A stretch of DNA of 64,000 bases from a candidate division WOR-1 bacterium RIFOXYB2_FULL_46_45 (GTDB lineage Bacteria; Margulisbacteria; WOR-1; XYC2-FULL-46-14): the NCBI GenBank assembly GCA_001771585.1, contig MEUE01000001.1, positions 869,984 through 933,983 of the forward strand, written 5' to 3'. The translations under genes were made by a program, and so were the position numbers. The notes under the pieces were generated by a model that saw only the letters and a list, made by a program, of their open reading frames with translations, was not told where the DNA came from and made no database searches. This document shows positions 5,164 to 43,448 of the stretch, piece by piece; position 1 is the first letter of the stretch, and every line of letters starts with the position of its first letter.

Positions 5164-5646
5164 TCAGAATTTCAGGAATTTGACGTCGTTATAGCCGCGG
5201 GGCTTGGGTTGTTGCCGCGGAGGCGCCGGCGGCGGCTGAGGAATAATATGCGGAGGGACCATCCGATGCTCCGGTTCTTTTCTTGTCTCAATCCGTTGCG
5301 GTAAAATCGGCTTATATTCGACTTTAGGAATCGGCATGATCGGCAGCTGTTCCGGCTGCGGTTGCTCCGCTTTAAAAACCAAATCTCCCTCTTTCGCCTT
5401 TTTCGAAATCTTGAGCCCGATCTCGGAACCCTTGCGGGCTCCCAAAATGGTCTTGTGGTTGACCTGCATCGAATCTACTTTCTGCGTGAATTCCCCCTCT
5501 CCGGTGCGGATCAAAATGTGGTCGCCGGCCTTGAGCGGGGCGGAAAGTTTGACTACCGCGACATTAATTTTTCCAAAGTAGTGCGTGATTTTACCAATCG
5601 GCTTTGGTCCGCTAGCTTTTTTCTTTTTCGCCGGAGGTTTCTTCAT
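5164..5646 (-). CDS. Translation-factor beta-barrel (EF-Tu domain 2-like) protein with Pro-rich tail
   Basis: The 160-residue protein begins with a Lys-rich segment. Residues about 15-95 resemble the second, beta-barrel domain of elongation factors (IGKITHYFGKINVAVVKLSAPLK, interrupted by AGDHILIRTG and GSEIGLKI). From about residue 96 it is rich in Pro and Gln. There is no GTPase domain. Similar stand-alone proteins are annotated as elongation-factor-like; their function is unknown, and an RNA or ribosome contact is only a guess. It overlaps the 3' end of the GlmU-like gene by 35 bases and is the last gene of the leftward apbE-ackA operon. Confidence 0.7.
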   Translation of the reverse strand: MKKPPAKKKKASGPKPIGKITHYFGKINVAVVKLSAPLKAGDHILIRTGEGEFTQKVDSMQVNHKTILGARKGSEIGLKISKKAKEGDLVFKAEQPQPEQLPIMPIPKVEYKPILPQRIETRKEPEHRMVPPHIIPQPPPAPPRQQPKPRGYNDVKFLKF

Positions 5647-6460
5647 AAATTTTCTCCATCAGTTTAGCATAATCCGCCGAAAAAGGAACTCCGCGGCGGG
5701 CCATCATCGCTTTGGCGGTCTCTTTCGCCTTTTGAAGATCAACTCTCCCCCCCTTGCCCCCCCACGAAAAAGAAGGGACAAACTTGGTGACCGGAAGGGC
5801 TCCAAAAATATTCGCGAAAACGCCAACCACCGCTCCGGTATAAATCAGCGTCCCGATCGCCGTCTTGGCGTGATCACCGATAAAACAACCGACAAAGGTT
5901 TCCCCTGTATCAATCCCCTCTCCGTTGATTACAACTTTAACCGAACTATAATTGTTTTTTAAATTTGAATTAGTGGTTCCGGCCCCCAAATTGACCCACT
6001 CCCCGATGTACGAGTGCCCGATAAAACCGTAATGTCCCTTGTTGGTGTAATCGAGAATGACCGAATGGACCAGCTCCCCCGCGATGCGGCAATGTTTTCC
6101 GACATAAAGCGGCCCGCGGAGAAACGACTGCGGATGGACAATTGTCCCTTCTCCGATAAAGATCGGACCAAACGTCGCGTCAAGAACCGCACAGGCGCCG
6201 ATTTGAGCCCCTTTGGCAATATGGATCTTTTTCGGCTTGATCAGTACCGCCGATTTGTGGATTGTCCCGTTTTTTTTCGGCTTGATGATCTTAAAATCCG
6301 CTTCCAGCTCCTCTTTTAATGAGGAGACAAGATCCCACGGATATTTGATCTCTTTGATTAATCTCTTTTTTTCTTTGATCGGCCGCGCTCCGCAAATCAA
6401 ATCGCCAAAAGACCGCATGTATGTTAGGGGAAGCAGGTTCTTTCTTTTTTCTTCGCTCAT
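5612..6460 (-). CDS. GlmU-like left-handed beta-helix protein lacking most of the nucleotidyltransferase domain
   Basis: The 282-residue protein resembles the Bacteroidota-type GlmU/sugar nucleotidyltransferase, but shortened. Residues 8-35 (NLLPLTYMRSFGDLICGARP) match the N-terminal edge of those proteins. The sequence then passes quickly to YPWDLVSSLKEELEADF, which normally follows the catalytic nucleotidyl domain, and to hexapeptide repeats (about 65-235). Residues about 150-165 (HSYIGEWVNLGAGTTNSNL) form the GlmU-like acyltransferase core. The catalytic pyrophosphorylase core seems to be missing, so an acyltransferase or binding role is likelier than nucleotide-sugar synthesis. Its ATG overlaps the ackA stop (ATGA), so translation is coupled to ackA. 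Confidence 0.75.
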   Translation of the reverse strand: MSEEKRKNLLPLTYMRSFGDLICGARPIKEKKRLIKEIKYPWDLVSSLKEELEADFKIIKPKKNGTIHKSAVLIKPKKIHIAKGAQIGACAVLDATFGPIFIGEGTIVHPQSFLRGPLYVGKHCRIAGELVHSVILDYTNKGHYGFIGHSYIGEWVNLGAGTTNSNLKNNYSSVKVVINGEGIDTGETFVGCFIGDHAKTAIGTLIYTGAVVGVFANIFGALPVTKFVPSFSWGGKGGRVDLQKAKETAKAMMARRGVPFSADYAKLMEKIYEETSGEKEKS

Positions 6461-18529: not shown

Positions 18530-19659
18530 AAATCCTAGTCTCCGCCGGGGAAGTTTCGAGCGATCTTTACGGTTCGTTTCTAGTCAAAGAGATTGTAAGG
18601 ACAAGTCGCGACTTGTCCTTACAAATCCTCGGCATGGGAGGAGAAAAACTCGCCGCCGCCGGGATGGATGTCCGCTGCGATATTATTGAAAGAAGCTCTG
18701 TCGGATTGGTTGAAACCCTTCCCAATATCCCCGCAATTTATTTGGTCCTGCGCAAAATGATCTCTCTCTTGGACAAAGAAAAACCGGACCTGGTCCTGGC
18801 GATCGATTCGCAGGGATTTAATCTCCCCCTGTTGCGGGAGGCAAAAAAGCGGGGGATCAAAACCGCTTATTTTATTCCTCCCCAGGAATGGCTGTGGGGG
18901 ACCGAAGAGAATTTAAAAAAAGTCGTCGCCGTCTGCGACCTAATAATTGAAATATTTGAAGACGGTTATAAGGCTTACAAAGAAAACGGCGGGAATGTAA
19001 AATATTTCGGCCATCCGATTTTAGATATCGCCAAATCCACCCTTCCTAAAGAAACCTTCCTAAAGAAACACGGATTAAAAAACGCCTTCCCGATAATCTC
19101 GCTGGGGCTTGGCAGCAGAAAACAGGAGCTGAAAAAGCTTCTGCCCAAAATTTTGAAGACAGCCGAACTTGTTGCAAAAGAATTTAGGGGAGCGCAATTT
19201 CTAATTCCTCTCTCGAACACGAAATTCAGAAAAACCATCGAAAGGCACCTGAAAAAATACAAAATAAACGCGAAAACAATCGAGGATTCCAGTTATAACA
19301 TTTTAAATGCTTCCGATCTTCTGATAACAAAATCCGGGACAATCAATGTGGAAGCATGCGTATTAAATATTCCAAATATCATGATGTATGAGGTCCACCC
19401 GTTTACGTATTGGATCGCCGAAAAAGTTTTAAAAATAAAAGTTCCTCCTTATTTCAGCCTGCCAAATTTGATAGCTAAAGAAAAGATCATCCCCGAGTTT
19501 GTGCAAAAAGAGGCCGACCCCAAAAAGATTGCCGCAGAAGCGGTAAAAATCCTAAAAAATCCTCAAGAGATAAAAATCCGCATGCAAAAAGTCACCGCCG
19601 CGCTGGGCTCTCCCGGGGCTATAAAAAAGATTTCAGCTGAAATTTCCTCCTTAATTTGA
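18526..19659 (+). CDS. lpxB: Lipid A disaccharide synthase
   Basis: The 377-residue protein joins UDP-diacylglucosamine and lipid X to make the lipid A disaccharide (GT19 family). [53 protein letters not shown] and [11 protein letters not shown] are LpxB landmarks. It overlaps the fusion gene by 4 bases (ATGA). A perfect 32-base palindrome lies inside the coding region (18593-18624) and encodes [10 protein letters not shown] between the first helix and ILGMGG; there are about two residues more here than in E. coli LpxB. Reading frame and active-site motifs are intact. Confidence 0.95.
18593..18624. repeat. Perfect 32-base palindrome inside lpxB
   Basis: TTGTAAGGACAAGTCG is followed at once by its exact reverse complement. 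The type of sequence (GTAAGGACA words closing on CG) resembles the intergenic GTAGGGAAC palindromes at 29134 and 39090. Confidence 0.9.
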
Positions 19660-27780: not shown

Positions 27781-29112
27781 CTACTTACCCACACAAAATT
27801 CCCCAAACACCTTGTCAAGCACCTGTTCCGTAACCGCTTTGCCGGTCACCTCGCCGAGCGCGGCCGCCGCGTCCCGTAAATCAATTGTAAGCAAATCGAC
27901 CGGCTGTTTTATTTTAATAGATTGCAAGCCCCTTGACAAGGACTCTTTTGCGCGCAACAAACACTCCTTGTGCCGTGCAGTCAAAAGAATCACGTCGGCA
28001 TCATTGGCAATCCCCTTTCCTAACACCACCTTCAAAATAACCCTCTTCAACCCCCCCACCCCTTTTCCATTTATCAAAGAGACCTTAACGACCCGACCAA
28101 TCTCTTTCCCCGCCAAGCCCCTTACCCCCAAGTCAATTTTATTGGCAACAATTATTACCGCCCTCCCCTTTAGCTTCCCCAAAAGCACCTTCTCCTGCCG
28201 ACTAATTTTCGAGGAAGCGTCAAGAACAAAAAGAATCAAGTCGGCCCGATCAATCTCTGATTTTGCCCTTTCTATTCCCGCTTTTTCAATCTCGCAAACC
28301 GCCTCTCTTATCCCCGCCGTATCGGTAATTTTTAGCACAACATCACCAATACTTAACTGCTCTTCCAGAGTGTCCCTGGTCGTCCCCGGATGCTTCGTTA
28401 CGATCGCCCGTTCTTCCCCGAGCAGGACATTTAATAAAGTAGATTTGCCGACATTGGGGGCTCCGATAATCGCAGTGCGAACCCCCTCCCGCAAAATTTT
28501 TCCCGCCTCCGCCGTTGCCAAATAAGAATCAATAATTTTTAAAATGCCAAGAATCTCTTTCTCCAAACGCCGCGGAGAAACCGAACCGATCTCGTCCGAA
28601 AAATCGATCGACGCCTCGATCGCGGCAATAAGCGCAATCGCCCGATCATACAAGGCATTAATCTTTTCGGACAAATGCCCCTTGAGCTGTCGGGTTGACT
28701 GCTCAACAAATATCCCGCTCTTCCCTTTTATTAAACCAAGGACCGCCTCGGCCTGTGCCAGATCGATCTTTCCGTTTAAAAAGGCCCTTTTAGTAAACTC
28801 GCCCCGCTCGGCCAGCCGCGCCCCCAAACCGACAATTTGGCTCAAAATCGCCCGAAGAACCCCCACCCCGCCATGACAATGAACTTCCGCCACATCTTCT
28901 CCGGTATAGCTTCGTGGTGCTTTATCCCAAAAATGTTTCACGTGAAACATTTTTGAATAATAAACCCGATGAGAAGTGGGTCTTTTGGTGATTTTGAGCA
29001 GTTTTTGAAGGATTTTTAAAGAATCCGGGCCGCTGATGCGAATTATTCCGATTCCACCCTCGCCTATTGGCGTCGCTATGGCTGCGATGGTATCTTGGGG
29101 ATATGGCTTCAT
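27781..29112 (-). CDS. mnmE: tRNA modification GTPase MnmE (TrmE)
   Basis: The protein is 443 residues from ATG 29112; conserved sequence begins at KPYPQDTIAAIATPIGEGGIGIIRISG (read as the N-terminal folate-binding domain), and an upstream in-frame extension would read through a palindrome. IGAPNVGKSTLLN is the G1 loop, TKHPGTTRD the G2, DTAG the G3 and NKID the G4. The last residues EFCVGK carry the catalytic Cys of the family. With MnmG it modifies U34 of several tRNAs. A perfect parS site is embedded in the N-terminal domain, encoding MFHVKH. It follows jag in the leftward origin operon. Confidence 0.96.
   Translation of the reverse strand: MKPYPQDTIAAIATPIGEGGIGIIRISGPDSLKILQKLLKITKRPTSHRVYYSKMFHVKHFWDKAPRSYTGEDVAEVHCHGGVGVLRAILSQIVGLGARLAERGEFTKRAFLNGKIDLAQAEAVLGLIKGKSGIFVEQSTRQLKGHLSEKINALYDRAIALIAAIEASIDFSDEIGSVSPRRLEKEILGILKIIDSYLATAEAGKILREGVRTAIIGAPNVGKSTLLNVLLGEERAIVTKHPGTTRDTLEEQLSIGDVVLKITDTAGIREAVCEIEKAGIERAKSEIDRADLILFVLDASSKISRQEKVLLGKLKGRAVIIVANKIDLGVRGLAGKEIGRVVKVSLINGKGVGGLKRVILKVVLGKGIANDADVILLTARHKECLLRAKESLSRGLQSIKIKQPVDLLTIDLRDAAAALGEVTGKAVTEQVLDKVFGEFCVGK
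28934..28949. promoter_or_regulatory. parS site inside mnmE
   Basis: TGTTTCACGTGAAACA is the exact 16-base consensus ParB-binding palindrome, extended by AAAA and TTTT flanks. It lies 2.5 kb from dnaA, in frame inside mnmE. Confidence 0.92.
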
Positions 29113-29133
29113 ATTAAATTTTAATATACCCAT

Positions 29134-29171
29134 CAAACGTAGAGAACAAAAATTTTTGTTCTCTACGTTTG
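29134..29171. repeat. Perfect 38-base palindrome between jag and mnmE
   Basis: CAAACGTAGAGAACAAAAA is followed by its exact reverse complement. The core GTAGAGAACAAAAA matches the core GTAGGGAACGAAAA of the palindrome at 39090-39125 with two changes per arm. It is not followed by a T-run, so it is not a classic terminator. Confidence 0.85.
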
Positions 29172-29177
29172 ACATCG

Positions 29178-29798
29178 CTATCTGGGACTAATTACCAATC
29201 TCCGATCCCTCCCCATCCCCTCACTATGCGTGGTTATCTTCGGATCATCTTTTAGTGCCATATGGACGATCCGGCGTTCTCCGGCCGACATGGGAGGCAA
29301 AACCTTCTCCTGTCCGCTTGCGGCAACGTCCTTGGCCGCGCTCAACGCCAACCGCTCAATCGCCTGTTTTTGTTTTTCCCTATACCCTCCGGCATCAACA
29401 TAGGTCCTTATTCTTCCACCATAAGCGCGGCTTAGGGCCGCCGAAATTAAGACCTGTAAGGCATCAATAGTTGCTCCGTCCTTCCCGATGATCTGGCCAA
29501 GGTCCTCCCCTTTTATATCGACTATAACCTCCCTATCTTCTCCTGTTTTTGCCTCCGCAACAGCCAAAAGTCCCATATAATTTAAAATTTCCTGCATTAT
29601 CTCCTGGCCCCTTGCTTCGGGAGAGATCTTCTTCCATGCTTCTATTTCAATGTCCTTTCCTCCAATAATCCCCAGCACTCCGGCCTTCCCTTCGGATACC
29701 ACCTTATGTTCAATCTCGTCTTTTGAAACCCCCAATATCTGTGCCGCCCCCTCAATTGCTTCTTCTAAATTACCTGCCTTGAAAGTTACTTTGTCCAT
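29178..29798 (-). CDS. jag: Jag/KhpB RNA-binding protein
   Basis: The 206-residue protein has an N-terminal Jag domain (about 1-50, FKAGNLEEAIEGAAQILG), a KH domain (about 75-150, with IIGKDGATIDALQVL as GxxG loop), and a C-terminal R3H domain (PMSAGERRIVHMAL ending in RRLVISPR). It binds RNA and is linked in Gram-positive bacteria to cell elongation. AAGGAGG lies upstream of ATG 29798. It follows yidC in the usual rnpA-yidD-yidC-jag-mnmE order. Confidence 0.95.
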   Translation of the reverse strand: MDKVTFKAGNLEEAIEGAAQILGVSKDEIEHKVVSEGKAGVLGIIGGKDIEIEAWKKISPEARGQEIMQEILNYMGLLAVAEAKTGEDREVIVDIKGEDLGQIIGKDGATIDALQVLISAALSRAYGGRIRTYVDAGGYREKQKQAIERLALSAAKDVAASGQEKVLPPMSAGERRIVHMALKDDPKITTHSEGMGRDRRLVISPR

Positions 29799-29825
29799 TT
29801 AATCAAGTCCTCCTTTTTGCCAAAA

Positions 29826-29841
29826 TGTTTCACGTGAAACA
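29826..29841. promoter_or_regulatory. parS site between yidC and jag
   Basis: A second perfect TGTTTCACGTGAAACA, again flanked by AAAA and TTTT, 876 bases centre to centre... measured from the copy at 28934 the offset is 892 bases. It lies 1.6 kb from dnaA. Confidence 0.93.
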
Positions 29842-29856
29842 TTTTTAGGCCGTTCC

Positions 29857-29994
29857 GAACCTGCGAATAAATTCGCGGTTCCGGCTCGGATCCCGCGAAA
29901 ATGAATTTTCGCACCCAATCTTGGGATTAAGAGGGTGCGAGATTTTGATCTCGCGGGAACCCCCTGGGAACCGAGACTTCAGTCTCAGGTTCCC
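29857..29994. repeat. Array of four hairpins between yidC and jag
   Basis: Four inverted repeats stand in a row: 29857-29881 (GAACC/GGTTC outer, GCGAAT/ATTCGC inner), 29895-29912 (GCGAAAAT/ATTTTCGC), 29937-29954 (GCGAGAT/ATCTCGC) and 29966-29994 (GGGAACC/GGTTCCC outer, GAGACT/AGTCTC inner). Longer pairings are also possible, such as TCCCGCGA (29891-29898) with TCGCGGGA (29951-29958). The stretch would be a structured spacer in the yidC-jag mRNA. No gene lies in it. Confidence 0.85.
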
Positions 29995-29996
29995 GA

Positions 29997-30644
29997 TTAG
30001 GCCCGTTTGGGCATTACCTTATGAACAATCCACAGTTGCTGAACTACCGCCATTAAATTTGAAACCAGCCAATAAATCTGAACCCCGGTCGGAAAACTTA
30101 AACAAATAAAAGTTAAAAAGATCGGCATGAAGTAGGTCATCATCTGCATCTGGCTATTTGCAACATTGCTGGTCGGCATCGTCTTTTGCATCCAATAGGT
30201 AGATAGCCCTATTAAAATGGGAAAAATAAAGAGGTGGTCCGGCTTTGCCAGATTGGCAATCCACAAAAAAGAGGCATTAACCTTGGGATCGGCAATAATG
30301 GCAACAAATTCTTTCCCTTGTAAAACCATAAATAGTCCGATAAAAAATGGCAGTTTAAGCAGGGTAGGGAGACAGCCGCCAAAGGGATTGACCTTTTCCT
30401 TCTTATAAAGCTCCATCATCTCTTTTTGGAGCTTCTGCGGTTCGTCCTTAAACTTTTTCTGGATCTCCTGCATCAACGGCTGTATTCTTTGGAAGGCAGC
30501 CATTTGGACGGTTGACTGCAGGGTGAGGGGGTAGAGGACCACGTTCACCGCGATGGTAAAAAGCATGATCGCCAAGCCATAGTTCCCCGAGATCGAATAA
30601 AAAAACTGGAGCCCTTGCAGCATCAAATTCGTTATGATTTCCAT
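29997..30644 (-). CDS. yidC: Membrane protein insertase YidC (short form)
   Basis: The 215-residue protein is the YidC/Oxa1 core only. About five hydrophobic segments are visible (YGLAIMLFTIAVNVVLYPLTL; the segment starting LPFFIGLFMVL; HLFIFPILIGLSTYW; MTYFMPIFLTFICLSFP; QIYWLVSNLMAVV). The cytoplasmic loop holds QRIQPLMQEIQKKFKDEPQKLQKE. The large periplasmic domain of Gram-negative YidC is missing, and there is no lipobox as in Gram-positive SpoIIIJ. It inserts proteins into the inner membrane. AAAGGAG precedes ATG 30644, next to yidD. Confidence 0.95.
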   Translation of the reverse strand: MEIITNLMLQGLQFFYSISGNYGLAIMLFTIAVNVVLYPLTLQSTVQMAAFQRIQPLMQEIQKKFKDEPQKLQKEMMELYKKEKVNPFGGCLPTLLKLPFFIGLFMVLQGKEFVAIIADPKVNASFLWIANLAKPDHLFIFPILIGLSTYWMQKTMPTSNVANSQMQMMTYFMPIFLTFICLSFPTGVQIYWLVSNLMAVVQQLWIVHKVMPKRA

Positions 30645-30863
30645 TTAAACTCCTTTTTGAGGAACCGGATCGTATCCCCCCTTTGAAAACGGATTACATC
30701 GTAAAATTCGCCATGCTATCTTAAAAAACGCACCTATACCATAAACATCAACCGCCTCAATGGCGTATTGGGAACAACTGGGATAAAAACGGCACGAACA
30801 AGGTAGGATAGGGGATATCATTTTTTGGTAAGATAACAATAAAAATTTAATTGCTTGCTTCAA
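30645..30863 (-). CDS. yidD: Membrane protein insertion efficiency factor YidD
   Basis: The protein is 72 residues if it starts at TTG 30863, one base after the rnpA stop, with GGAG nine bases upstream. A TTG at 30902 would add 13 unconserved residues and has a badly placed Shine-Dalgarno. [31 protein letters not shown] and [15 protein letters not shown] are the family core (quoted in parts: [25 protein letters not shown]). YidD assists YidC-dependent insertion. It sits in the standard rnpA-yidD-yidC order. Confidence 0.93.
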
Positions 30864-39071: not shown

Positions 39072-39089
39072 TAAAACATTTACAGGCGA

Positions 39090-39132
39090 GGCCGTAGGGA
39101 ACGAAAATTTTCGTTCCCTACGGCCTTTTTTT
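39090..39132 (+). terminator. Rho-independent terminator made of a perfect palindrome
   Basis: GGCCGTAGGGAACGAAAA (39090-39107) is followed by its exact reverse complement to 39125, then TTTTTTT. It ends the dnaA-gyrA transcript. Its core resembles the 29134-29171 palindrome. Confidence 0.9.
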
Positions 39133-43354: not shown

Positions 43355-43448
43355 ACTCACCCCCTGGCCCCCTCTCTATTCTAGAGAGGGGGAAAAGAGT
43401 CGGAAAAGGAAAGTCCCTCTCTTGGAAAGAGAGGGATTTAGGGTGAGT
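43355..43448. repeat. Two-hairpin repeat element upstream of skp
   Basis: The outer arms ACTCACCC (43355-43362) and GGGTGAGT (43441-43448) are exact complements. Inside are an 11-bp hairpin (43368-43392, CCCCCTCTCTA/TAGAGAGGGGG) and a 10-bp hairpin (43414-43436, TCCCTCTCTT/AAGAGAGGGA). It looks like a REP-type mobile palindromic unit and would fold in the skp leader, 20 bases before the start codon. Confidence 0.88.

Follow-up and report, generated by a model that had tools for sequence, protein, structure and literature searches.

A four-hairpin segment between yidC and jag of a WOR-1 bacterium is very probably a copy of a small mobile element without its transposase gene

The window analysed here, a stretch of 64,000 nucleotides from candidate division WOR-1 bacterium RIFOXYB2_FULL_46_45, carries four consecutive hairpins between yidC and jag. 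We conclude that this segment is very probably a fossil copy, devoid of a transposase gene, of a small mobile element with heterodimers of bulged hairpins as its inverted ends, in the manner of MITEs and REPINs; the striking hairpin cluster beside parS would be mobile-element debris and no origin device. The features of the region are as follows.

29997 to 30644, minus strand: yidC, the upstream neighbour (open reading frame; tblastn to relatives).
29849 to 29996, limits approximate, minus strand: the whole inserted segment, lying after the yidC stop codon and before parS; it is absent from the spacers of 28 of 28 relatives, and loci L012 and L180 have an equal frame round a transposase relic.
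29966 to 29994, minus strand: hairpin B2, GGGAACC-T-GAGACTGAAGTCTC-GGTTCCC with the T bulged, one element end; matches covariance model R1 at 29967-29993 (46.7 bits, E 3.9e-14) and has a verbatim copy at C1:204107.
29933 to 29962, minus strand: hairpin A', GGGT-TCCC-GCGAGATCAAAATCTCGC-ACCC, the inner hairpin of the B2-side unit; its place matches that of the A hairpins of L012, L180 and L170.
29917 to 29932, no strand: the 16-nt centre, AATCTTGGGATTAAGA; tnpA or its relic occupies the same place in other copies.
29888 to 29916, plus strand: hairpin A, GGATCCC-GCGAAAATGAATTTTCGC-ACCC, inverted relative to A'; near copies at C1:204073-204135 and C1:104507.
29856 to 29882, plus strand: hairpin B1, CGAACC-T-GCGAATAAATTCGC-GGTTCC with the T bulged, the other element end; matches model R1 (42.6 bits, E 1.2e-12).
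29826 to 29841, no strand: parS, TGTTTCACGTGAAACA, adjoining the insertion and outside its limits.
29178 to 29798, minus strand: jag, the downstream neighbour (open reading frame; 67% identity in the nearest relative), with its ribosome-binding site AAGGAGGA intact.

Read on the minus strand, the segment runs B2-A'-16 nt-A-B1, which amounts to two inverted units, B2-A' and A-B1. The B hairpin is 27-28 nt long, with the consensus GGAACC-T-GMGANTRAA(N)NTCKC-GGTTCC, and its unpaired T lies where two stems join. All four inverted repeats listed in the preliminary description are present, as B1, A, A' and B2, and the pairing between arms of different hairpins that it had pointed out is also real: TCCCGCGA at 29891 and TCGCGGGA at 29951 are exact complements. 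The minus strand folded as RNA to −75.4 kcal/mol as compared with −48.2 kcal/mol for 200 dinucleotide shuffles (z −6.8), and the plus strand folded as DNA gave a z of −7.1 with the same number of such shuffles. In the RNA structure of minimum free energy (−74.6 kcal/mol) both A hairpins are joined, while the local hairpins alone reach −63.3 kcal/mol. This strong folding and the two competing folds are in favour of an RNA structure in the yidC-jag mRNA that acts in cis, like a riboswitch or in processing, by switching between folds, and such an element would be transcribed if rnpA-yidD-yidC-jag-mnmE form one operon. However, an Rfam scan of the window returned only tRNAs, with no match to the hairpins, and the same hairpins occur elsewhere, one of them inside metH. 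Since the two A hairpins share a design in opposite orientations, their arms can also pair with each other, and the alternative pairing is best read as a by-product of inverted ends.

The preliminary description had set the hairpins in the origin operon, where ParB would load, and had raised the conservation of the spacer as a point to be checked. We located jag in 52 of the 57 genomes searched, the WOR-1 genome counted among them, and the yidC-jag spacer, which ranged from 0 to 206 bp, was measurable in 28 relatives among those with fetched loci. Not one of these 28 spacers held the hairpins; in the nearest relative, of the same family and another genus, the spacer is 84 bp long as against 198 bp in the window. 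Conservation in position was thus not borne out, and the 28 hairpin-free spacers exclude a role specific to this spacer; the same result largely refutes the RNA switch, whose position is conserved in no relative. An accessory element of the origin or of ParB could be suspected from the distance of about 15 bp to parS, given that the perfect 16-mer occurs only twice in the genome, both times in the window (28934-28949 and 29826-29841, 892 bp apart, the former within the mnmE reading frame). We consider this scarcely credible. Relatives keep parS without the hairpins, in the same place, either as the exact sequence (L027, L028, L029 and L043) or as the variant TGTTCCACGTGGAACA (L022 and L039); the other hairpin loci of the WOR-1 genome have no parS, and its second parS has no hairpins. 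Because the hairpins flank IS200-type transposase genes (see below), their closeness to parS looks incidental, and the proposed tie to ParB loading is not supported.

A further possibility is that the cluster was recruited between yidC and jag as a terminator or a stabiliser of mRNA, a secondary role that would be compatible with mobile origin. REP sequences are often located no more than 20 bp from the 3' end of the gene upstream (PMC3733652), and some B hairpins of relatives sit in A-tract/T-tract terminators (G011). A terminator scan of 29600-30700 was nevertheless negative on both strands, and none of the four hairpins is followed by a T-tract. We therefore regard such recruitment as unlikely; a mild effect of the hairpins on the yidC-jag transcript is possible.

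The hairpins are dispersed well beyond this locus. A census of the WOR-1 genome, made from searches plus individual stretches, found single hairpins again at a locus of four hairpins between glyQ and glyS, at C1:104507 and in the metH reading frame, and the same hairpin words recur verbatim in many genera among the genomes of relatives. An exact pattern covering both hairpin types, searched in one genome per species over 84,980 species, matched only contigs of Saganbacteria, WOR-1 or Margulisiibacteriota, and viral contigs gave no match to it. The covariance model found the B hairpin in 28 of 30 genomes of the class Saganbacteria, with 6 copies in the WOR-1 genome and from 1 to at least 127 copies per positive genome among the best 139 candidates of each; in other classes of the phylum it found practically none. 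In G004, 9 of 12 hairpins are intergenic in about 395 kb of which about 90% is coding, and inverted hairpin dimers were seen at L054, L055, L059 and L117. This occurrence at other loci and throughout the class does not support a role specific to the spacer or the origin. Our literature search on repeats of Saganbacteria found nothing on the B hairpin family; mobile palindromes of the IS200 and REP types are known, and what is new is the class-wide hairpin variant in Saganbacteria.

The B1 copy in metH was considered as an in-frame coding insertion of the RPE kind. The linker in which it sits is hypervariable and shows hardly any net gain in length relative to G001, and the claim of an insertion was dropped for this reason. 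At C1:104507 (L013, about 509-590), the loop of the B1 hairpin encloses a further palindrome, ACCTGCCTTGCCGGTAGGCAGGT, as if one palindrome family had inserted into another. In G025, bin.592, many contigs (L052, L075, L086, L090, L094 and others) start inside the palindrome AATCAACAGAATTAATTCTGTTGATT with a B2 hairpin within about 10 nt after it, which makes this palindrome an assembly-breaking repeat abutting B hairpins.

Pairing in the B family is maintained by changes on both sides of the stem. In 109 distinct copies gathered without demanding a match at the variable pairs, the most variable inner pair was C-G in 64 and A-T in 45, with 0 broken (shuffled mean 56), and the second was C-G in 63, A-T in 42 and G-C in 3, with 1 broken (shuffled mean 53). 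A count over the alignment gave 62 double-change cells versus 19 after shuffling, but those copies had been selected by pairing and the count is biased towards it, a bias of which the 109-copy count is free. G-U (G-T) pairs were nearly absent and filled 3 of about 760 cells, a scarcity more readily expected of a DNA hairpin than of an RNA hairpin. Such constraint at the DNA level further weighs against the switching RNA, which we hold to be very improbable. The suggestion of a structured element therefore stands insofar as the B copies hold their pairing by strong two-sided covariation, and falls insofar as it implied a function specific to the spacer or the origin.

The mobile-element reading draws on a link to an IS200-class transposase. 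Of the 30 nearest genomes, 20 had Y1_Tnp (PF01797) genes, and B hairpins lay within 250 bp of 11 of the 30 Y1_Tnp genes (24 copies in 24.6 kb). Farther out, these loci held 8 copies in 67.7 kb, and control jag and metH loci held 1 in 139.7 kb. Around the transposase genes most B hairpins had forward orientation on the left flank and reverse orientation on the right flank. A single branch in the tree of the 30 transposases separated the 11 B-linked proteins from those with CCCCACA palindromes; this split by hairpin type was recovered in 200 of 200 bootstrap trees and in 0 of 500 label shuffles. Proteins of the B-linked group have the HUH motif DHVH and a Y---Q context (SYIIGQ/QYIKEQ in L135/L144), which marks class 1 in the published classification of TnpA (PMC6006769), and B-linked transposases match TnpA of ISDra2 and IS608 in the PDB.

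We also weighed a classical REP/RAYT system, in which REPs are moved by a REP-associated tyrosine transposase. In its favour are the numbers, up to at least 127 hairpins (among the best 139 candidates per genome) versus one or few transposase genes, and the inverted heterodimer pairs and intergenic bias, as in REPINs and BIMEs. The transposase itself argues otherwise: B-linked transposases scored 64.7 and 67.3 bits with the NCBIfam model transpos_IS200 (NF033573), over the cut-off of 55, and the former only 47 bits with REP_Tyr_transpos, under the cut-off of 80. Moreover, the active-site context is Y---Q and not Y---NP, and among 62 copies we found no conserved foot beside the hairpin, GTAG/CGTC or other. 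A RAYT-driven family is thus quite improbable.

The WOR-1 genome has no intact transposase of the B clade. Its Y1_Tnp at C1:696665 was considered as the driver and rejected, being of the other clade, with CCCCACA palindromes; a second Y1 match, at C3:101478, was also set aside and is an NP-type protein. The second Y1 clade (L126, which is C1:696665, and L122, L139 and L141) is flanked by a palindrome family of its own, CCCCACA...TGTGGGG and CCCACGA...TCGTGGG.

Copies with the same ends and different centres place the window copy in a series. G004 has an intact gene for a 126-aa transposase (L170, about 5365-5745, minus strand) with an A and a B1 hairpin directly behind it; another copy there reads B2-A-[MVYHYILNQRNGQNIDKRY...]-A-B1, with a short frame that resembles both ends of the transposase. 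Between glyQ and glyS of the WOR-1 genome lies B2-A-[MLYHYVFNTYKRKNSL..KGISARRFFQEYPSNR..]-A-B1. Both of these copies (L180 and L012) hold an internally deleted transposase relic, and in the window only 16 nt separate the A hairpins, with tnpA absent. The ends are the same and the centres shrink; the window copy is thus the furthest-reduced form of a shared layout, and at most a deletion derivative. A site with the pattern of insertion was found in G022, where a stop codon is directly followed by a B1-B2 dimer, about 90 bp long. In the sister species G028, the same two genes are adjacent with nothing between them, the flanks are 85-90% identical, and exactly the dimer is missing, with no obvious target duplication; the difference could also be a deletion in G028. 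At the window locus, where the nearest relative is of another genus, there is no orthologous empty site alignable base by base.

In IS608 and ISDra2, TnpA binds to single-stranded DNA at hairpins close to the element ends (PMC5934647). By analogy, the B hairpin is probably the recognition site of the transposase, with A as an inner hairpin. In related genomes, autonomous copies encode between such ends an HUH/Y1 transposase of the IS200/IS605 class of 125-175 aa, of which the genome under study retains only the deleted relic at glyQ/glyS; following the example of IS608 and ISDra2, the enzyme would bind the hairpin on single-stranded DNA, cleave beside it and rejoin the ends. The element would have landed directly after the yidC stop codon, sparing parS and the ribosome-binding site of jag, and the copy would then have lost its transposase gene. 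Past mobility through a B-clade transposase is what we infer from this arrangement, and the window copy is most likely inert now.

The window copy may be akin to IS200/IS605-derived MITEs (palindrome-associated transposable elements), which have IS200-type ends and no gene, but it ends in double hairpins (B plus A). The B elements share with the IS200/IS605 family, including IS608 and ISDra2, a linked class-1 TnpA (HUH, Y---Q; by NCBIfam and PDB similarity) and short imperfect end hairpins whose stems contain an unpaired base, and with IS608, ISDra2 and IS605 a second hairpin inside the end (PMC5934647). They differ in that the end hairpins are inverted, whereas those of IS608 are both on the top strand, in having two covarying hairpin types, in hairpins that far outnumber transposase genes, in the lack of a gene in the window copy and in the 62 copies having yielded no guide or cleavage tetranucleotides. 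REPINs and BIMEs are similar in that unlike palindromes stand a short distance apart in inverted pairs (PMC3116915, PMC3733652), and in their high copy number, extragenic location and transposase flanked by palindromes; in contrast to them, the B-linked transposase is class 1 and not RAYT (class 2), and the GTAG/CGTC foot is missing. Class 3 TnpA-Y1 with atypical hairpins (PMC6006769) likewise combines an IS-like transposase with a REP-like copy number of hairpins, yet has Y----Q and a CnGA foot where the B-linked proteins have Y---Q. The class-wide family of this uncultured lineage thus presents an IS200-class transposase that acts in a REP-like way, with few genes and many heterodimeric hairpins, and offers a helpful example of how IS200 elements may give rise to REP systems.

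Many B hairpins are extended by symmetric arms that are specific to the locus. Outside GGAACC/GGTTCC, at least 3 extra pairs were present in 18 of 62 copies as compared with 1.8% of mixed flanks, and at one locus two sister species have common terminator-like arms with different tips. These arms could come from insertion at a dyad axis or from later template switching. It is conceivable, if doubtful, that the IS200-class transposase inserts REP-like heterodimeric hairpins at the symmetry axes of palindromes, tips of terminators included, with locus-specific arms as the result; we know of no case of a preference for dyad axes or hairpin tips in IS200/IS605 or RAYT systems. An orthologous terminator-like hairpin of G011 and G014 (L100, about 3500, and L183) has the same outer arms and different inner stems.

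Other palindromes were noted in the window. Two perfect ones of 38-40 bp, at 29133-29172 and 39089-39126, have a common core, GTAGRGAACRAAAATTTTYGTTCYCTAC, of which these are the only two copies in the genome, one of them between jag and the probable mnmE start. A perfect 32-bp palindrome lies at 18593-18624, and adjacent CTCTCT...AGAGAG hairpins lie at 43368-43392 and 43414-43436.
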